A DNA stretch of 64,000 bases, taken from assembly GCA_013299115.1 (NCBI GenBank), contig JAAFKA010000006.1:62001-126000 (forward strand), in the 5' to 3' direction. A program made the position numbers and the translations under genes. Numbering within the stretch: position 1 is the first letter of the stretch; every line of letters starts with the position of its first letter. This DNA is from Cytophagales bacterium. GTDB lineage: Bacteria > Bacteroidota > Bacteroidia > Cytophagales > Thermoflexibacteraceae. Under the pieces are notes generated by a model. That model did no database searches and had not been told where the DNA came from. It was given only the letters and a program-made list of their open reading frames with translations. Below, in pieces: positions 11,998 to 20,391 of the stretch.

Positions 11998-14900
11998 CTA
12001 CTGCACCACAAAATCATCACCCAACGACAACCTCCCCAGCGAAACAGGCTCGGCTTTGTCAAAATTGACCTCGCCCACTACTGTAATTTCGTGAGAAGGA
12101 GCAGCCACCAAAATAGACCACGCAAAAGTGCCTTGCATAGCCGTTTGATTTTGAGTAGTGGAGGGCAAAGCACTGTCTGCCAACTGATAAGTTTCGGTTG
12201 CGGTGCTTGCCACTTTGAGCATACTCACACTGCCTACAAAGTGAATATAAGGTCGCAATTTGATAAAATGCAGCAAAGCCGTATTGCTGATAACTACCTG
12301 AAATGGGTTATTTTTTTGTGAACTTTCATTCAAAAAATGGCTAATTTCCTCTTGCAACAGTTGCCAATAATAGCCTGTTTGGTAGCCTTTTTTAAACTGA
12401 ATTTGGCAAAACACCTTCACTTTTTCGTAAATTGGGTTTCGCACTTCTATTGTTGCAAAAGGCGTTGCCAAATTTTTGACAAAATCCTCAATGGTTTTTA
12501 GCTCCTCAAAACTTGCCAAAGGTGTGTGCGTAATTGCCCTTTCAGGAATGACCACTATCACCACAGACCCCGCCACTGTTTGATTAGGCTGCTGGCTATT
12601 GGTGTGTGGCAAACATTTTACTTTTTTGAGATAAGGAAATTTTTGGAACAACAAATGTTCGTAATCCCATGCGGTTACGGCTCTTTGCTTGTGTTTCAGG
12701 TGTTCGTTTACCCTTGTTTTCATATCGGTTTGGCTCTCCTCTGCCGTATAGCCAAAAGAGGGCAAAGGCTGATAGACAAATCGCAAACCTTCTATCAAGT
12801 TTTTGGGTTGCACAATGGAATAAGCCTCACAAGTGGCAGGTGGCGTGGTTTCCATGTCGGTGCTTACCCACTCCAAAACGGCTGCTTGCGTGTGAATGGC
12901 TACTGTTTTGCAAATTTTATCTAAATTTCCGTTTGCTTGCAAGCAAATCCAATGCAAAGCTGGGTTTAACAGCGTATTGCCTGTGGTCATTTGCAAAGGC
13001 AATTCCAGACTGACTACGCCACTTCGGGTTAGGGCTTGCGTGGTATCTTCCAAAATTGCCGACTCTGCAAAAGGAAACCAAGTATTTTCTTTGAGGTAAA
13101 ACCAACGCAACTGCACTGCCTCCTGCGAAAGATGTTGTACTGCTGCGGGGGCTAAATGAAACAAAAGATGCAAAGTTTCGGGTGGTTTGGCACGCCACAA
13201 CCCAAAAAGCAACTGCCCACCTGCATTGACAGCAGGTAGCAATTTGTTTTGTTGATTTTTTCCCTCTTTGTTTGGATAGACAACCTGATGCCCATCTAAA
13301 TGCAAATGAAAAAACGTGGCTTGGCTATTTGCCTGATGAGCAGCCTGCACAGGTTGGCGGTAAGCAAAATTGATAACCTCCGAAGCCTCATAAGCTAAGG
13401 AAATCGACTGCACAACAGGGGTGTAAGGTTTTTGCGGTAATTGTTGTTCTTTTTTGCCCATCACTTTTGCCGAAAGACTTTGCACCAATACATTGTCAGT
13501 CATTATTTTGGAGAGCAAAAACGGATAGGTTTCATGCCCAAAAGCATCGGCAGGCGTAGCCAATTCGAGGCGGATAAAACCTTGCTTGCTGGTGTGCGTA
13601 TAAGCCAACTGCGGTTGGTTGATGCCCTCATAATTTTCGGTAGTTGGCAATATTTTTTTGTCTATATTGGCAAAAATAGTGCGGTTGCTAAGTTTTCCAA
13701 TTCGTTGCGGTGGCAAAGTTTCACTGTGGTCAGTTCGAAACAAAGGAAGGTTTTGAGGTTGTTGGGCAGGAGGAGTTTTCCACTTGCCATTTTCCAAACA
13801 ACTGATTTTCACTGTAAAACTTGTGTTGTCGTAAGTTGTTTCATAGTCTTGGTAGTAACCCTGAAAGCCGTCAGGATTTGTAGGCAACCCAAACCATTCT
13901 ATATTGATAGTCAAGGAGTTAAGAGGTTTAAAAAAGGCTTCTTTGCTACCAATCAACCAATAAGAACCCACCGTAGGCACAGGGCTAAACGGCATAAAAG
14001 GATTGGTTGGGTTGAGTTGGCTGTAATTGTTATACAGTACCAAATCTTTCACTTCTTTTGCCTTCACACTGATTTTGATTTGCTCTATTTCCAACGGAGC
14101 AAACAAAGTATAAGGATAAATAATGCCTGTGTGCTGCATACAAAAACGAACAACAGGCAAGGTAGTAGCCAACGGAATAGGCAGCGAATTTTTTGGAAGA
14201 GTTGGCGAAAAAGTTGTTGGGGGAAGTTGGTTATGCAGCAAAGGGTCGTAGCCAATGACAGCCCCAATGCTATTGTCGAGTGCCAAATCTATATGAAAAG
14301 AGTTGGTAGCCAAATCATAACCAGCCCCTAATTTGTCTATGGTATGCCAGCCGTTTTGGGTCGTAATTTGGATAAGAAACCCATTTCTTACCAAAATAGC
14401 AAACAAGTTTTCGGGGGTTTCGTCTTGCTCAAAAGCCAATTTTTTGAGGTAAGAAATGAAACTATTTTTGCTATTTTTACTATTTTTATCGTCAAAACTA
14501 TCAGGCGTAAAGAAAAAGTCGAGGGCAATTTCTCTTTGCCCTTCTTGCAAATAAAAATTGGCAGATGCCACCGCAAAACCAACAAAGGCTGTTTGCATCG
14601 TTTGTTGGTCTTGGCTTTTGCCGTCTTGTTTTTCGCCAAAGGTAGCAAAAGTTTCTTGTGCAGTTTTGCTGTTTTCCTTGGGTGGCACAAAGGGCAAAGC
14701 TATATTTCTTTGATAAATTTGCTCAAATAAAACACCCTCATTGAAAATATTTTGATACTTTTTGTTCTCCTTATTTTCGGCATATAAAATCTGTAACTCT
14801 TTGATAATGATTTGATTAAACACCAAATCTTGTGTAGTTGCATACAAACTTTCGGGCTGCGAGGCTTCGGCAGGCGGTGCAACAAAAGCAGTACCTTCGG

Positions 14901-15816
14901 GCAAGACCAAATAAGGCTGTTCAGGATTTAGTTCCATATAAACCAACACTTTGCCCGCCTTTGCAGCTTTTGGTTTTTGTTGCAAGAGGGTTTGGTAGTA
15001 CAAATCGGTATGCTTGGCAGTAAATTGATTGGTAAACTGTTGCAATTTTTCGAATAGCTGCACAAAAGCCACATACAAGGCAACACCTGCATCATGGTTG
15101 TCGTCAGGGGAAGTAAGCAAATTGGAGAAGTTTTTATATTTTTGCTGCAAAAAACCAATCATTTCTATAAACAGTTGCGTTTGGGCGTAGGCTTTTTGGA
15201 GTAAAAACGCCAATTTTTGTTGTGTAGTCAGGGGCAAATCTGTTGAAAAAATTGTTTTTTCTACCTTGATAAATTGCGTTTCGGCTTGCCAAAATTGTAG
15301 ATTTTGCTCATCAAAAAATTGCAATTTTATTTCCAATAAATTTTCGCAAGCCTCCGCAAGTTGTTGCAAAGCAACAAAAGCTACCGCCAATCTGTTGTCT
15401 ATGGCTTGGTCTAAGGTTTGTTTGAGTAGCAAAGCCTGTGGTGGCAAGGTAGCAGTTTGCAAGGGCATTGTCCACGTGGCAAAGGCGTGGGTTAGTTGGT
15501 GTGCAGCCCCAAAAAACTCTGTTGTATAGTGCTGTAAATCAGGCAAATAGTTAGTTTTTGCTGCCCAATGCAAGGCGTGGCTCAATTTTTTTTCGGTGGC
15601 TGCCCAATCAAATTGGGCAATAGCAGCCTGTATGAGCAAGGGATTTTGGGCAAAAAAGCTCTGCCAAGTCCCATTTTTTTTGTTTTGGAGGTCGTAATAG
15701 GCTATGAGTTTGCCCATATCAGCAGCAAAACTCAATAGGTTTTCTATTTTTCTTTCGTCTATCCTAACGAAATTGTCTTGCAAGGGTTTTATCAAACGAG
15801 GGGTTTGCATACGCAA
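11998..15816 (-). CDS. Baseplate J-like protein of a contractile injection or phage-tail type
   Basis: This very large 1272-residue protein is rich in Gln and aromatic residues. Residues around 1030-1200 resemble the baseplate wedge J (gp6/Afp11-like) family. There is a charged motif (RVNEHLKHKQRAVTAWDYEH), then FPYLKKVKCLPH, a VVVIPE strand, a block around ATPFATIEVRNPIYEKVKVFCQI, and a final LRPYIHFVGSV. The first 250 residues are helical and the middle is beta-rich. In phage tails and extracellular contractile injection systems such proteins join the sheath baseplate. No sheath, tube, spike, AAA+ loader or tape-measure gene is in the window, so the protein is isolated here. It is 16 bp downstream of the sirtuin gene on the same strand. 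The call is by motif style and is only moderately sure. Confidence 0.6.
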   Translation of the reverse strand: MRMQTPRLIKPLQDNFVRIDERKIENLLSFAADMGKLIAYYDLQNKKNGTWQSFFAQNPLLIQAAIAQFDWAATEKKLSHALHWAAKTNYLPDLQHYTTEFFGAAHQLTHAFATWTMPLQTATLPPQALLLKQTLDQAIDNRLAVAFVALQQLAEACENLLEIKLQFFDEQNLQFWQAETQFIKVEKTIFSTDLPLTTQQKLAFLLQKAYAQTQLFIEMIGFLQQKYKNFSNLLTSPDDNHDAGVALYVAFVQLFEKLQQFTNQFTAKHTDLYYQTLLQQKPKAAKAGKVLVYMELNPEQPYLVLPEGTAFVAPPAEASQPESLYATTQDLVFNQIIIKELQILYAENKENKKYQNIFNEGVLFEQIYQRNIALPFVPPKENSKTAQETFATFGEKQDGKSQDQQTMQTAFVGFAVASANFYLQEGQREIALDFFFTPDSFDDKNSKNSKNSFISYLKKLAFEQDETPENLFAILVRNGFLIQITTQNGWHTIDKLGAGYDLATNSFHIDLALDNSIGAVIGYDPLLHNQLPPTTFSPTLPKNSLPIPLATTLPVVRFCMQHTGIIYPYTLFAPLEIEQIKISVKAKEVKDLVLYNNYSQLNPTNPFMPFSPVPTVGSYWLIGSKEAFFKPLNSLTINIEWFGLPTNPDGFQGYYQDYETTYDNTSFTVKISCLENGKWKTPPAQQPQNLPLFRTDHSETLPPQRIGKLSNRTIFANIDKKILPTTENYEGINQPQLAYTHTSKQGFIRLELATPADAFGHETYPFLLSKIMTDNVLVQSLSAKVMGKKEQQLPQKPYTPVVQSISLAYEASEVINFAYRQPVQAAHQANSQATFFHLHLDGHQVVYPNKEGKNQQNKLLPAVNAGGQLLFGLWRAKPPETLHLLFHLAPAAVQHLSQEAVQLRWFYLKENTWFPFAESAILEDTTQALTRSGVVSLELPLQMTTGNTLLNPALHWICLQANGNLDKICKTVAIHTQAAVLEWVSTDMETTPPATCEAYSIVQPKNLIEGLRFVYQPLPSFGYTAEESQTDMKTRVNEHLKHKQRAVTAWDYEHLLFQKFPYLKKVKCLPHTNSQQPNQTVAGSVVIVVIPERAITHTPLASFEELKTIEDFVKNLATPFATIEVRNPIYEKVKVFCQIQFKKGYQTGYYWQLLQEEISHFLNESSQKNNPFQVVISNTALLHFIKLRPYIHFVGSVSMLKVASTATETYQLADSALPSTTQNQTAMQGTFAWSILVAAPSHEITVVGEVNFDKAEPVSLGRLSLGDDFVVQ

Positions 15817-15832: not shown

Positions 15833-16528
15833 TTATTTATTTTGCAGCAACCAATTACGTACTTTTACCATACCTGTTGTTGCTTTTTCTTCTATAAATG
15901 TCTGCTTTTTAGAATAACTTACTTCGGGCTTTTTGGGGTCAACTATAAATCTTGGCGTGTCAAGAGGCACATAGTCCACCAAACTTGCAGCGGGGTAAAC
16001 CACCAAGGAAGTGCCTACCACAACAAAAAAGTCTGCTGTTTCGCAAATTCTGGCTGCCTCTGCAATTAAAGGCACACTTTCGCCAAACCAAACAATATGG
16101 GGGCGAAGTTGCGACCCTTTTTCACATTTATCACCTATATTGATTTCCAAGCCTTTCATGTCATAAATCAACTTTTCATCGACAGTGCTGCGAGATTTAA
16201 ACAGTTCGCCATGCAGGTGGATAATATTCGTGGAGCCTGCCCTTTCGTGCAAATTGTCCACATTTTGGGTAATAACTACCACCTCAAAATCATCTTCGAG
16301 GGCAGCAATGACGTGGTGAGCCTCATTGGGTTTCACACTTGCAGCTTGTTTGCGGCGTTGATTATAAAACTCTAAGACTAAGGCTTTATTTTTTTGCCAG
16401 CCTTGTGGCGAGGCTACTGCCATCACGTCATTGCCTTCCCACAATCCGTTTGAATCTCTGAAAGTGGCTATGCCACTCTCCGCGCTTACGCCTGCTCCTG
16501 ATAAAACAACTACTTTTTTCTTTGTCAT
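15833..16528 (-). CDS. NAD-dependent protein deacylase, SIRT5/CobB type
   Basis: This 231-residue sirtuin removes acyl groups from lysine using NAD+. The NAD-binding motifs are GAGVSAESG (11-19), FRD (23-25) and TQNVD (87-91); the catalytic base is H106 in HLHGELF. Y55 and R58 in FYNQRR form the Tyr-x-x-Arg pair that favours succinyl and malonyl substrates in SIRT5 and CobB. The usual zinc-binding cysteine pairs are absent: only C135 remains in the region 107-140, a state seen in several Bacteroidota sirtuins. It is the upstream neighbour of the baseplate-like gene. Confidence 0.9.
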   Translation of the reverse strand: MTKKKVVVLSGAGVSAESGIATFRDSNGLWEGNDVMAVASPQGWQKNKALVLEFYNQRRKQAASVKPNEAHHVIAALEDDFEVVVITQNVDNLHERAGSTNIIHLHGELFKSRSTVDEKLIYDMKGLEINIGDKCEKGSQLRPHIVWFGESVPLIAEAARICETADFFVVVGTSLVVYPAASLVDYVPLDTPRFIVDPKKPEVSYSKKQTFIEEKATTGMVKVRNWLLQNK

Positions 16529-16683: not shown

Positions 16684-17505
16684 TTATTTCACTATCTTCA
16701 TAAATCTTTGGTAGAAAGGTGTAGGACTTTTTTCGTTTTTGGGAGCATATTCTCCGTTGATTATAGGCACATACATCACTCTACGGCGACTTTCTGCACC
16801 TTTGATGGAGGCTTGGGCTACTCTGTGCCATAGTCTGCCATCGTGTACGGTCAAGTCCCCTGGTTGTGAACTCAATGCAATTTCGTTGGGGTCAGGTGTA
16901 TTGTCCACAAAGTATTTTTTGCGGAAGATTAGCCCCAATAGACTTTGTTTGTGTGTGCAAGGTATCAAACGCAAACCACCTTTTTCGGGTGTGCATGTGT
17001 CGAGGTGTACGCCTACATTGAGCATAGGACCTATTTTTTTGCCTAAGAAAATATCACGTGGGGCATCGGTATGCCAGCCCATTTGGGTAAACTCACTTTT
17101 ATCTGTATTGACATAGTGATTGATTACCAAACCGTCTTTTTCGTTTTCGCCTACACGACCTCCTTCGGCTTTGAGCAAAGGAAACAACAATTCAAATCTT
17201 TTGTCGAGCAGAAATTCGTGCAAAATAGGGTGGTGTTGCGAGGCAAAAGCATAGCGTTGCACTATTTTGCTGCCATCGGCATCAAAACCGTACTTGATAG
17301 GCACGCCATTCACTTTCTCTACATTTTCGGCAACCCACTTTTCTTGTACGGCTTCCATTGCCTTAATGATTTGGCTTACTCCTTCGGGGCTAACAAAGTT
17401 TCGGAAATGAACGAAACCATATTCTTCAAAGAAACTGATTTGTTCTGGCGTTAGTTTGTCGCCCAGCGTAAATATTGGATAGTTAAACTCTCTCACTTTA
17501 TTCAA
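16684..17505 (-). CDS. Phytanoyl-CoA dioxygenase (PhyH) family protein
   Basis: This 273-residue Fe(II)/2-oxoglutarate-dependent oxygenase has the jelly-roll metal triad H145-x-D147 (GWHTDAP) and H227 (DGRLWHRV). A conserved region rich in Gly and Pro (LDTCTPEKGGLRLIPCTH) lies between them. The family hydroxylates carbons next to a carbonyl or on lipid chains. It is the last gene of a minus-strand run after a sphingolipid desaturase-like gene and a sphingomyelin-synthase-like gene, so a 2-hydroxylated fatty acyl chain or a C4-hydroxylated base of a sphingolipid is an attractive but unproven substrate. Confidence 0.85.
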   Translation of the reverse strand: MNKVREFNYPIFTLGDKLTPEQISFFEEYGFVHFRNFVSPEGVSQIIKAMEAVQEKWVAENVEKVNGVPIKYGFDADGSKIVQRYAFASQHHPILHEFLLDKRFELLFPLLKAEGGRVGENEKDGLVINHYVNTDKSEFTQMGWHTDAPRDIFLGKKIGPMLNVGVHLDTCTPEKGGLRLIPCTHKQSLLGLIFRKKYFVDNTPDPNEIALSSQPGDLTVHDGRLWHRVAQASIKGAESRRRVMYVPIINGEYAPKNEKSPTPFYQRFMKIVK

Positions 17506-17536
17506 GTAGTTTTAATAATTCGATGAAAGTTAAGTA

Positions 17537-17603
17537 TGATTTATGATATATGATATATGGTTTATGATTTATGATATATCATAAATCATATATCATAAAT
17601 CAT
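17537..17603. repeat. Long AT-rich palindrome between the desaturase and PhyH genes
   Basis: Bases 17563-17590 form a perfect 28-bp palindrome centred on ATATAT-type sequence. The flanks 17537-17552 and 17588-17603 are also mutual inverted repeats, so two alternative hairpins can form. It occupies nearly the whole 106-bp spacer between two same-strand genes. It could reduce expression of the PhyH gene or stabilise the 3' end of the desaturase message. Confidence 0.7.
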
Positions 17604-17611
17604 ATTTATTT

Positions 17612-18616
17612 CTACACTGCCACTGCTTCGCCATTCCTGATAATAGTTGTGGGGGCTGCATTTTGTCTTTCGGTTGTACTCCGTTCTATGCGTGAGTACA
17701 GCGAAATATTTTTGTCTGTAATAAACCGCCACACTAAACCTGTCCAAGAGTTGTGCGAATACAAGTTGTCGTAAAATTCGGGTGCCATTTCTTTTACTTT
17801 TGGCAGGTTATGCCAAGCCACACCGGGAAAATCGTGGTGTTCGTTATGGTAGCCAATATTCATTTGCATCAAGTTCAACCCTCCGTAGTAGCTGTATGTT
17901 TCTTGTTTGTCGTGCAAAACAAAGTGTTCTTGTATCCAACGACCTCCCAAGGGGTGCAAACTCAAAGAGAAATAGAAACTCAACAACATATACACAATAG
18001 CATAACCACCGATAAATTGATAGACTGCTGCAATAAATGCAAGTTGAGTAAGCCAATTTAAGGCTGTCCAGCCATCAAAAGGGGCTACGTCTTTTACTCT
18101 TACCACACGCATAATTTGGAGAATGGGGAAACAAGCCAACCAAATAGCTTTCATGATAGCAGAATTGCCGACTAATCTGGCTTCCCAAGGTTCGGGCATA
18201 TCTGTATCTGTTTCGTGTATGCCTTGATGGGCGTGGTGTTTGAGGTGATATTTTTGGAAAGAGATGAAAGAAGGAATAATGGCGGGCAGATTGACTATCA
18301 AGCCAAATGCTACATTCAATCCTCTGTTTTGGAACAACAAATAATGACTTGCCTCGTGAATAATAACCACCACTACGTGATTCACAAAAGCACCTACACA
18401 ATACGCTGCAAGGGCAATGACCCACCAAGGCTGGTCGTAAATGGTAAGTAAATAACCTATGCTTACTTGCACCACCACACAGAGCAACGCAATAATGGCA
18501 GTCATTGCATTACGCCCGTTGAGTTGGCGAATTTCGGGGTGTTTTTTCAAAATTTCTCTTGTCCTGCTAAAATGCGGTACAGGTTCTTTGGATTGTATAA
18601 AGGTTTGGTTTGTCAT
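17612..18616 (-). CDS. Sphingolipid delta-4-desaturase (DEGS/DES1-like) fatty acid desaturase
   Basis: This 334-residue membrane desaturase has the three histidine boxes HEASH (87-91), HLKHH (124-128) and HNEHH (257-261) that bind the di-iron centre. Several features are specific to the dihydroceramide delta-4-desaturase branch. The N-terminal stretch 17-36 (SRTREILKKHPEIRQLNGRN) looks like the Lipid_DES domain of animal DEGS1. The segments LHPLGGRWIQEHF, ETYSYYGGLNL and GYHNEHHDFPG also match that branch. DEGS enzymes introduce the 4,5-trans double bond that turns dihydroceramide into ceramide. It lies 46 bp downstream of the PAP2_C gene. The reaction here is inferred from homology; other bacterial family members could act on other lipids. 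Confidence 0.82.
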   Translation of the reverse strand: MTNQTFIQSKEPVPHFSRTREILKKHPEIRQLNGRNAMTAIIALLCVVVQVSIGYLLTIYDQPWWVIALAAYCVGAFVNHVVVVIIHEASHYLLFQNRGLNVAFGLIVNLPAIIPSFISFQKYHLKHHAHQGIHETDTDMPEPWEARLVGNSAIMKAIWLACFPILQIMRVVRVKDVAPFDGWTALNWLTQLAFIAAVYQFIGGYAIVYMLLSFYFSLSLHPLGGRWIQEHFVLHDKQETYSYYGGLNLMQMNIGYHNEHHDFPGVAWHNLPKVKEMAPEFYDNLYSHNSWTGLVWRFITDKNISLYSRIERSTTERQNAAPTTIIRNGEAVAV

Positions 18617-18662
18617 TTTTATAGCTGATTAACATTTTTTTTGCAAAGATATAAATTGCAAG

Positions 18663-19403
18663 TTAATTTTTCAATGATTTTTGTAAAAAACTAATTTCGT
18701 ATTGGTTTTCATACACTCGCAAAATTCCTGTCTGCCAATCTAAGGAAGTATGGTGTAAAAGCAAAACTATTTTGTACGAAACTAAGGTAAAAGGAATAGC
18801 TGCAAGCACATCTATAAAATAGTGTGCGTGTTGCACCAAAACCAAAGTGCCAACAGTAAGAGCTGCTAAGGCAAAAACAGGTTTCAACCAGCGTTGCGGC
18901 ACCATGAGCCAGAGGACTATCATAGTAGAAGTATGCCCAGAGAAAAACAAATCTTTGTTAATCGGATTGCCTGCATAGACAAAAATAGCCATAAAAGGGT
19001 CTGTCAAATCTACATAATGAACAGGTGCTTCCAAAGGAACTAAATAAATGCTACACATACGCAACGAGGTTACTAAGACATAAGTCTGCAAACCTATCAA
19101 AAAGTTTTTTGCGTTGGGCAACGCCAATAAAATGGCTGCTACAATGGAAACATAGCAAACAGTAAATAAAGGAGTAGAAACATCTGTTGGTGGTATCATG
19201 TTGAGTACCAAATCGTTGAGATGGTAACCTTTGCGGGCTTGAATAAATGCCAAAAAAGTAGGCACCCAAAGGCTCATGCAAGGAATAAAGAGTACCGTAC
19301 AAATAAAACTTGCAAGGTAAGAGGGTTGTTGCCAAACAGGTTTGTATTCGGCTGCCAAACGACTGAAAAAGCTATTTGAAGGAGTTGAAATTTTATTTTC
19401 CAT
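18663..19403 (-). CDS. PAP2_C (sphingomyelin-synthase-like) membrane phosphotransferase
   Basis: This 246-residue protein has about six hydrophobic segments and a lipid phosphatase/phosphotransferase triad. The residues are H157 in FFSGHTST and H194-x3-D198 in HAHYFIDVL, with the H-Y-x-x-D spacing of sphingomyelin synthases (PAP2_C). An LRMCSIYLVPLEAP loop (about 114-127) corresponds to the second conserved motif of that family. Sphingomyelin synthases move a phospho-head group from a glycerophospholipid to ceramide. It is the first gene of the minus-strand group. Whether it is a synthase or a plain lipid phosphatase cannot be told from the sequence. Confidence 0.78.
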   Translation of the reverse strand: MENKISTPSNSFFSRLAAEYKPVWQQPSYLASFICTVLFIPCMSLWVPTFLAFIQARKGYHLNDLVLNMIPPTDVSTPLFTVCYVSIVAAILLALPNAKNFLIGLQTYVLVTSLRMCSIYLVPLEAPVHYVDLTDPFMAIFVYAGNPINKDLFFSGHTSTMIVLWLMVPQRWLKPVFALAALTVGTLVLVQHAHYFIDVLAAIPFTLVSYKIVLLLHHTSLDWQTGILRVYENQYEISFLQKSLKN

Positions 19404-19559: not shown

Positions 19560-20237
19560 TTACAATTCCTTCAAAATTTTCAGGGATTGGAGTTCGCCAA
19601 AGTTTTCTACGTGTAGGCGGTAGTAGAGGCAAAGGTATTCGGCTATTTCGCTGCGGGCAGTGCCGTTGAGCAAGATAGCAGCCCCGTATTGGCTGTTTAT
19701 TAGCTGTTGGATAGTTTCGTTGTGCGGGGCATGATAAAATTTGTAGCCGTAGGCTTGGAGTTGAGCCTGTAAATCTCTGGCATCAGAAATAGCAAAACCC
19801 AAATGTTCACTCAATTTTAAGAGTAGTTGGAGGTGAAAATTGGCATAATTCTTTGGTAGGGCATCAAAAATAGACAAACTTTCTGTTAAAAAGCCAAAAA
19901 GGTCAGCGTTGCCTGTTTCCTCTCTTAAACACTTAGCTAAAACTTCTGTTAAAAAGAAACAAATGCTGATTTTAGGTGCTGCAACGGCAAGAGTTTGGTA
20001 CGGTTGCAGTAGCCTAATTTCGGCAATGCGTTGAATAGCAGCTTTTTCGTTTTCATAGACCACCAAATCCACCTGATTCAACGGCTGATAGAGGGCAATT
20101 TTTGCTGTTTTGGTGTTTCGCACCCCATTGACTACGTAAGTCCGCAGCCCGAAAATTTCGGTGTAGATTTTGACTATAATTGAACTTTCTTTGTACCTAA
20201 TAAAGTTCAATACAATGCCTTTGGTTTTGTGTAACAA
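19560..20237 (-). CDS. recO: DNA repair protein RecO, probable TTG start
   Basis: RecO loads RecA onto SSB-coated DNA together with RecR. The protein matches the family from LHKTKGIVLNFIRYKESSIIV, with the OB-fold N-terminus and a helical C-terminal domain; the zinc cysteines of some RecO proteins are absent. The ATG-initiated frame begins at 20279, but its first 14 codons (MPEGNYPKQ...) are encoded by a dispersed palindromic repeat and have no family counterpart. A TTG at 20235-20237 falls exactly where the family's start Met should be, giving 225 residues, so TTG is preferred. Confidence 0.85.
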   Translation of the reverse strand: MLHKTKGIVLNFIRYKESSIIVKIYTEIFGLRTYVVNGVRNTKTAKIALYQPLNQVDLVVYENEKAAIQRIAEIRLLQPYQTLAVAAPKISICFFLTEVLAKCLREETGNADLFGFLTESLSIFDALPKNYANFHLQLLLKLSEHLGFAISDARDLQAQLQAYGYKFYHAPHNETIQQLINSQYGAAILLNGTARSEIAEYLCLYYRLHVENFGELQSLKILKEL

Positions 20238-20254
20238 GGATAATAAAATTAATT

Positions 20255-20391
20255 GTTTAGGATAGTTGCCTTCAGGCAACTAAATTTTTGTTTGCTATCA
20301 AGTAACTAACAGTTCTTAGAGAACTGTTAGTTTTCTAATTTCAACGTGATAAAAACATAAAATTAGTTGCCTTTAGGCAACTATCCTAAAC
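20255..20391. repeat. Palindromic element upstream of recO
   Basis: The arms 20255-20288 and 20359-20391 are inverted copies of about 33 bp, each containing its own small palindrome GTTGCCTxxAGGCAAC. Between them is a perfect hairpin (20304-20332, AACTAACAGTTCT / AGAACTGTTAGTT). It has the structure of a MITE or REP-like element. It overlaps the ATG that a gene caller would choose for recO. Confidence 0.75.

Follow-up and report, generated by a model that had tools for sequence, protein, structure and literature searches.

A DEGS-type desaturase, a PhyH dioxygenase and a PAP2_C protein as a candidate sulfonolipid-tailoring set in a Cytophagales bacterium

We analysed three lipid genes of a Cytophagales bacterium (assembly GCA_013299115.1; 5.50-Mb draft genome, 74 contigs, 99.99% complete) located in a 64,000-nucleotide stretch of contig JAAFKA010000006.1 (positions 62,001 to 126,000), hereafter the window. 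The genes lie on the minus strand in the order PAP2_C, desaturase, PhyH, and encode a helical membrane protein of the SMS/SMSr type (246 amino acids (aa), 18663..19403), a membrane desaturase of the DEGS type (334 aa, 17612..18616) and a PhyH-family Fe(II)/2-oxoglutarate dioxygenase (273 or 270 aa, 16684..17505). A preliminary description of the same DNA had placed three same-strand genes here and read them as a eukaryote-like cluster that decorates ceramides. The genes are confirmed, each scoring over its curated Pfam cut-off, and they are adjacent, but the cluster is partly loose: the PAP2_C and desaturase genes are separated by 46 bp, and the desaturase and PhyH genes by 106 bp, mostly occupied by an AT-rich inverted repeat (17531..17608; 38-nt arms, 87% complementary). 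The lipid that they tailor is, tentatively, a sulfonolipid.

The desaturase scores 101.7 bits against FA_desaturase (PF00487; cut-off 29.7) and 38.7 bits against Lipid_DES (PF08557; cut-off 23), which represents the DEGS N-terminus; the DEGS-specific N-terminus and histidine boxes reported earlier are therefore both present. All three boxes (H87-x3-H91, H124-x2-H127-H128 and H257-x2-H260-H261) are invariant across 25 aligned members of our choosing. Those NCBIfam models for desaturases and hydroxylases that match it at all stay far below their cut-offs, and PDB sequence searches with the protein or its profile returned no relevant chain. A quick tree (rows trimmed to the last 345 residues, three duplicates omitted) split 59 DES rows from four bacterial desaturase rows (SH-aLRT 95), with outgroup branches at the length limit of 10. 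It took in 14 of the 80 named-genome loci described below, and only four of the six outgroup loci yielded a row; the search for a virus-encoded desaturase as a eukaryote-like outgroup found none. Of the proposed phylogenetic check against DEGS1 and bacterial fatty-acid desaturases, the tree covers half at most: it does not show the window protein among acyl-lipid desaturases, and its rows include no eukaryotic DEGS. Within the tree the window desaturase is a long, unplaced branch (1.09 changes per column) with at most 53% identity to any row. The tree label ‘SulA_only’ was assumed for five genomes (G434, G420, G422, G425 and G437), and nothing was concluded from it.

The PAP2_C protein matches PF14360 at 30.8 bits (cut-off 27), and H157, H194 and D198, correctly named in the preliminary description, do not vary among the 12 PAP2_C proteins that a set of 59 genomes (this one and relatives) yielded. 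A profile of these 12 proteins ranked human SMSr (8ijq) first among PDB chains (E 6.6e-5), and the bacterial PAP2 phosphatase 5jki matched much more weakly (E 0.42). SMSr was also the top structural match of the AlphaFold model (pLDDT 86.7; Z 16.0 over 195 residues, rmsd 3.2), followed by LpxE (13.2), inositol phosphorylceramide (IPC) synthases (13.0 and 12.6), human LPP1 (10.8) and 5jki (10.6). ‘Sphingomyelin-synthase-like’ is right for family and fold, the modelled fold being of the SMS type rather than that of a plain PAP2 phosphatase; a shared fold shows no function, and the family and fold match alone fixes neither head group nor acceptor. SMSr itself is said to hydrolyse glycerophospholipids without ceramide (PMC7988496; this and all other papers are cited from excerpts of their text).

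The third protein matches PhyH (PF05721) at 57.5 bits (cut-off 22). H145, D147 and H227 (H-x-D ... H), presumably the iron ligands, do not vary among the 15 aligned PhyH proteins. The best PDB chain for the family profile was phytanoyl-CoA dioxygenase (2a1x, E 3.6e-6), with ectoine hydroxylase next, and the dioxygenase call holds; a fold search returned numerous 2-oxoglutarate oxygenases with much the same score and no clue to the substrate. The start codon is ambiguous, either TTG at 17505 (273 aa) or GTG at 17496 (270 aa), and PhyH proteins of relatives start MREFNYP or MKDFKYP.

The set is flanked on the same strand by genes outside it, recO upstream (19560..20279; PF11967 and PF02565) and one for a Sir2 family protein downstream (sir2, 15833..16528; PF02146). 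Composition shows no foreign origin of the desaturase gene (GC 0.425, compared with 0.40–0.43 in measured neighbours); the PAP2_C gene is the exception among them at 0.379. Promoter pattern scans, one of which used a Bacteroidota promoter pattern, were uninformative. Downstream of sir2, a 1272-aa minus-strand protein (11998-15816) has no Pfam match at E 0.01.

Serine palmitoyltransferase (SPT) was not found in the genome by TIGR01825, a Bacteroidota SPT model or PDB comparison. The TIGR01825 search returned four loci: a Kbl-like gene (TIGR01822, 676.5 bits; cut-off 493), a BioF-like gene (TIGR00858 as best model at 321 bits, below the 426 cut-off), a weak partial match in a pyridoxal-phosphate enzyme of the Cys/Met-metabolism type (judged by eye) and a gene on contig C9. 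Against the Bacteroidota SPT model, which requires 640 bits, the genome’s top match was the Kbl-like gene (334.6 bits), and the C9 protein scored 281.5 bits. The C9 protein’s top PDB chains were Alistipes finegoldii SulA (7u7h, E 1.9e-177) and a cysteate-C-fatty acyltransferase (28eh, E 4.4e-170), with the SPT chains 3a2b and 8guh far weaker (E 1.4e-67). Aligned to 7u7h, it has a lysine where SPT 8guh has alanine (the ‘281 position’), the residue given as the difference between SulA and SPT (PMC9304779). This single residue told SulA from SPT in all 53 proteins checked from desaturase-positive genomes, with lysine in 23 of 23 SulA-like proteins and alanine in 30 of 30 SPT-like proteins (those with a locus returned, of 33 genomes with an SPT-like gene). 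By sequence, the C9 gene encodes a cysteate acyltransferase of the SulA/CapB type, the enzyme that opens sulfonolipid (capnoid) synthesis.

The preliminary description had predicted ceramides and had named a missing SPT gene as evidence against them. Because none was found, and because the nearest candidate is of the SulA/CapB type, we rejected de novo ceramide synthesis in this genome, and the ceramide prediction is most likely wrong for this organism. Nor could a sulfonolipid carry a 1-O-phospho head group of the ceramide type, since sulfonate there takes the place of the head-group hydroxyl of sphingolipids (PMC3463246).

Co-occurrence across relatives supports the idea that the three genes belong together. 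A desaturase search of the 59 genomes gave 14 matches, of which nine (E <1e-90) were counted and five were only weak matches to other desaturases. PhyH was present in nine of nine desaturase-positive genomes and five of the 50 others, PAP2_C in eight of nine and four of 50, and all 12 genomes with PAP2_C also had PhyH (Fisher p, uncorrected for kinship: desaturase–PhyH 1.6e-7; desaturase–PAP2_C 1.9e-6; PAP2_C–PhyH 8e-11). PhyH and PAP2_C occurred without the desaturase in G072, G049, G166 and the same-genus G395, and 11 members of the same family from other genera (three <90% complete) had none of the three genes. A second SulA-search match (E 1e-60) was seen among relatives only in G190.

A second set of 80 genomes, five of them common to the first, extended this pattern. 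PhyH was found in 13, all SulA-positive: six of six desaturase-positive genomes with SulA and without SPT, two of eight same-class desaturase-positive genomes with both SulA and SPT, none of eight others with both, none of 17 desaturase-positive genomes with SPT only, and five of 41 desaturase-negative genomes. Together the two sets held 23 different PhyH-positive genomes (14 in the first), every one with SulA. SPT was absent in 12 of 14 PhyH-positive genomes tested, G033 and G091 being those with it, and none was found in G146, G249, G371, G387, G150 or G391, all of which have desaturase and PhyH.

Across the phylum the Lipid_DES desaturase is not rare, occurring in 40 of 395 sampled genomes (this one included). 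A scan of named genomes gave at least 581 loci, including Mucilaginibacter, Chitinophaga, Taibaiella, Olivibacter, Puia and Pseudarcicella, of which the best 80 were examined. SPT-like genes were present in 33 of the 40 genomes (eight over the NCBIfam cut-off, 25 at 477–526 bits) and SulA in 23; 16 had both, 17 SPT-like genes only and seven, this genome among them, SulA only. SulA-type (Lys) and SPT-type (Ala) genes thus stand together in 16 genomes, for example G253, G261 and G089; according to a review, Bacteroidota may make either sphingolipids or sulfonolipids but not both (PMC10191378). The neighbourhood of the desaturase itself is little conserved. Sequence stretches around it in the other 39 genomes held no PhyH, and two loci (L059 and L061) had a weak PAP2 match of a different family (E 2e-5 and 7e-5) about 3–4 kb away. 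Among the best 80 named loci, no PAP2_C, PhyH, SulA or SPT lay within the flank, some flanks being short, and a distant short-chain reductase (SDR) was near the desaturase in two.

Gene order is more regular around PhyH, for which 27 of 28 loci were read (one G437 copy, on contig C13, was left out). An SDR adjoins PhyH in 20 of these; the window contains none, a search that did not extend to the other parts of the genome. PAP2_C lies within about 2 kb of PhyH in 12 loci (the window and 11 of 26 others). A CDP-alcohol phosphotransferase with GtrA replaces it in four (L296–L299), the two types never occurring together, and 11 loci have neither. One head-group transferase type is apparently swapped for another, which more than any other observation hints that PAP2_C passes on a phospho-alcohol and does not remove phosphate. 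The counts are not independent, since the loci come partly from near relatives (L189 and L190; L296–L298). The orders SDR–PhyH–PAP2_C (L184–L190, L291–L294) and SDR–PhyH–CDP-alcohol phosphotransferase–GtrA (L296:8316-11404, L297, L298 and L299) recur in several families. The best NCBIfam model for the SDR is mycolate reductase, below cut-off; it could be a ketone reductase of the 3-ketocapnine type. Between PhyH and PAP2_C, five loci carry a small Omp85-type protein of 367–379 aa (L188:9142-10281, L189:9092-10213, L190:8892-10013, L292:10488-11600 and L293:8208-9311), recognized by Pfam in three and by similarity in two. Two or three PhyH copies occur in G146, G249, G425 and G437, with one copy in the SDR/PAP2_C locus and the rest elsewhere.

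We propose, with a probability of about 0.45, that the window carries a lipid-tailoring set in a maker of sulfonolipids (N-acyl capnines) rather than of ceramides. With SulA present and SPT not found, the simplest reading that fits is a desaturase acting on the capnoid base and a PhyH acting on the same lipid, and the products would on this best reading be delta-4-unsaturated, hydroxylated sulfonolipids. The production of sulfonolipids, and every substrate and product named here, is what we infer from the genes. The desaturase would most likely add a 4,5 double bond to the capnoid base of N-acylcapnine, at the equivalent of the dihydroceramide desaturation site. A 4,5-double bond has been attributed to flavocristamide A, which the texts consulted did not confirm. 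PhyH would most likely add a hydroxyl to the base or, as seen at position 2 in RIF-1, to the acyl chain. PAP2_C would most likely take a phospho-alcohol from a glycerophospholipid and pass it to a hydroxyl group on some lipid acceptor; the site cannot be C1 of capnine, which carries the sulfonate. That PAP2_C adds its head group to another hydroxyl of the sulfonolipid, giving double-head-group sulfonolipids alongside the DEGS-type delta-4 capnoids and the PhyH hydroxylation, seems unlikely; if true, such lipids would be ones of which we met no report among the open-licence literature matches listed.

Several observations weigh against the sulfonolipid proposal. It is hard to see what in a sulfonolipid would serve as acceptor for a phospho-head-group transferase, and the co-occurrence tests ignore relatedness. 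SulA is found in 55 of the 59 relatives and the desaturase in only nine. More broadly, a SulA-like or SPT-like gene is near-universal, occurring in 40 of 40 desaturase-positive genomes and in 77 of 80 desaturase-negative ones that we took at even steps from the phylum sample (the three without are G006, G298 and the 77%-complete G346). The presence of such a gene alone therefore says nothing about the desaturase substrate, and the argument that desaturase-positive genomes have a sphingoid-starting enzyme was dropped. With 17 desaturase-positive genomes that carry SPT-like genes but lack SulA, the desaturase family is not bound to sulfonolipids throughout; its substrate may well be dihydroceramide in certain hosts and a sulfonolipid elsewhere. 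Within the class, SPT over the cut-off accompanied eight of 15 desaturase-positive genomes versus four of 29 same-order or same-class desaturase-negative genomes. PhyH is missing in six of the eight same-class desaturase-positive genomes with both starter enzymes, and the desaturase adjoins PhyH in only two of the 27 PhyH loci, the window and L199, where desaturase, PhyH and SDR follow one another.

The gene order around PhyH also feeds a different account, doubtful but not far-fetched, in which SDR, PhyH and either PAP2_C or the CDP-alcohol phosphotransferase form a separate lipid pathway. Its substrate might for instance be a serine-containing lipoamino acid or another lipid whose primary hydroxyl is free, and the desaturase would have joined the locus here either accidentally or to act on something related. 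The frequency of SDR, PAP2_C and the CDP-alcohol phosphotransferase beside PhyH, the rarity of the desaturase there and the four genomes with PhyH and PAP2_C alone all favour it. Pure chance association of the desaturase is argued against by the presence of PhyH in every desaturase-positive genome of the 59 and by the unbroken run of desaturase, PhyH and SDR in G420; SulA in all 23 PhyH-positive genomes also speaks against a separate pathway, though SulA is common anyway. The de novo ceramide account, in which SMS-like, DEGS-like and PhyH enzymes make sphingosine-type ceramides bearing a phospho head group, draws on the family assignments and on the 17 SulA-less genomes, where the same desaturase family could well act on dihydroceramide. 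For this organism it is already largely refuted, with no SPT found here or in the six desaturase- and PhyH-carrying genomes named above, and we hold it to be very unlikely.

Two further accounts were considered. DEGS-type and SMS-type enzymes in a genome with no SPT found might modify sphingolipids taken up from eukaryotes or neighbouring bacteria, but PhyH turns up repeatedly in genomes from several families that lack SPT, for which a lipid of the cell’s own making fits better, and uptake is distinctly improbable. Membrane desaturases switch regiochemistry easily, and the window desaturase, on its long branch and distant from every tree row, might act on fatty acids or as a hydroxylase instead of on an amide lipid base. 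We give this little credence: the Lipid_DES N-terminus is over its cut-off, the family-invariant residues are kept, and the NCBIfam desaturase and hydroxylase models score far below theirs.

Sulfonolipids act on animals and their closest relatives: RIF-1 of Algoriphagus machipongonensis triggers rosette development (PMC3463246), and sulfobacin A is said to be pro-inflammatory (PMC10191378). Should a DEGS-type desaturase and a PhyH enzyme modify them, the genes responsible for unsaturated and hydroxylated sulfonolipids become open to testing. A DEGS-type gene in a bacterium is no evidence of ceramides until SPT has been checked against SulA. As an enzyme assignment, the set is a candidate that is new within the open-licence literature matches listed, a body outside which most subscription papers lie and in which we recognized no bacterial DEGS-type desaturase, no SMS-type PAP2_C and no genes for unsaturated sulfonolipids; excerpts of PMC11334938, PMC12927429 and PMC7237790 likewise contain no desaturase gene.

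Among known systems, the PAP2_C protein most resembles SMSr (8ijq), ranked first in both the profile and the structural comparison, and shares the triad and helical core with SMSr and IPC synthases (9vj4, 9ivc); LpxE and an IPC synthase follow closely for the model. It differs from SMSr in its low identity (17%), and SMSr has an N-terminal SAM domain for which 246 aa are too short. The desaturase resembles the dihydroceramide delta-4-desaturase DEGS1/DES1 in its Lipid_DES N-terminus and three histidine boxes, but is bacterial, known here from sequence alone, and sits in a genome with no detected SPT, in which no de novo dihydroceramide is therefore expected. With the SulA/CapB pathway of Alistipes finegoldii, Chryseobacterium gleum and Capnocytophaga the genome shares one SulA-type enzyme with the diagnostic lysine. 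Published genes for that pathway comprise cysteate synthase, CFAT/SulA/CapB and 3-ketocapnine reductases related to 3-ketodihydrosphingosine reductases, and in the excerpts consulted the assignments reach only the 3-ketocapnine reduction step (PMC11211663, PMC10191378). The described steps stop at N-acylated capnine, with no bacterial desaturase, PhyH or PAP2_C step in those excerpts (PMC11211663, PMC10191378, PMC9304779). RIF-1, compared by lipid structure only, as the excerpt of PMC3463246 does not give its tailoring genes, is a sulfonolipid with a 2-hydroxy acyl chain and a 5-hydroxy base, tailoring of the sort that a PhyH enzyme could do.

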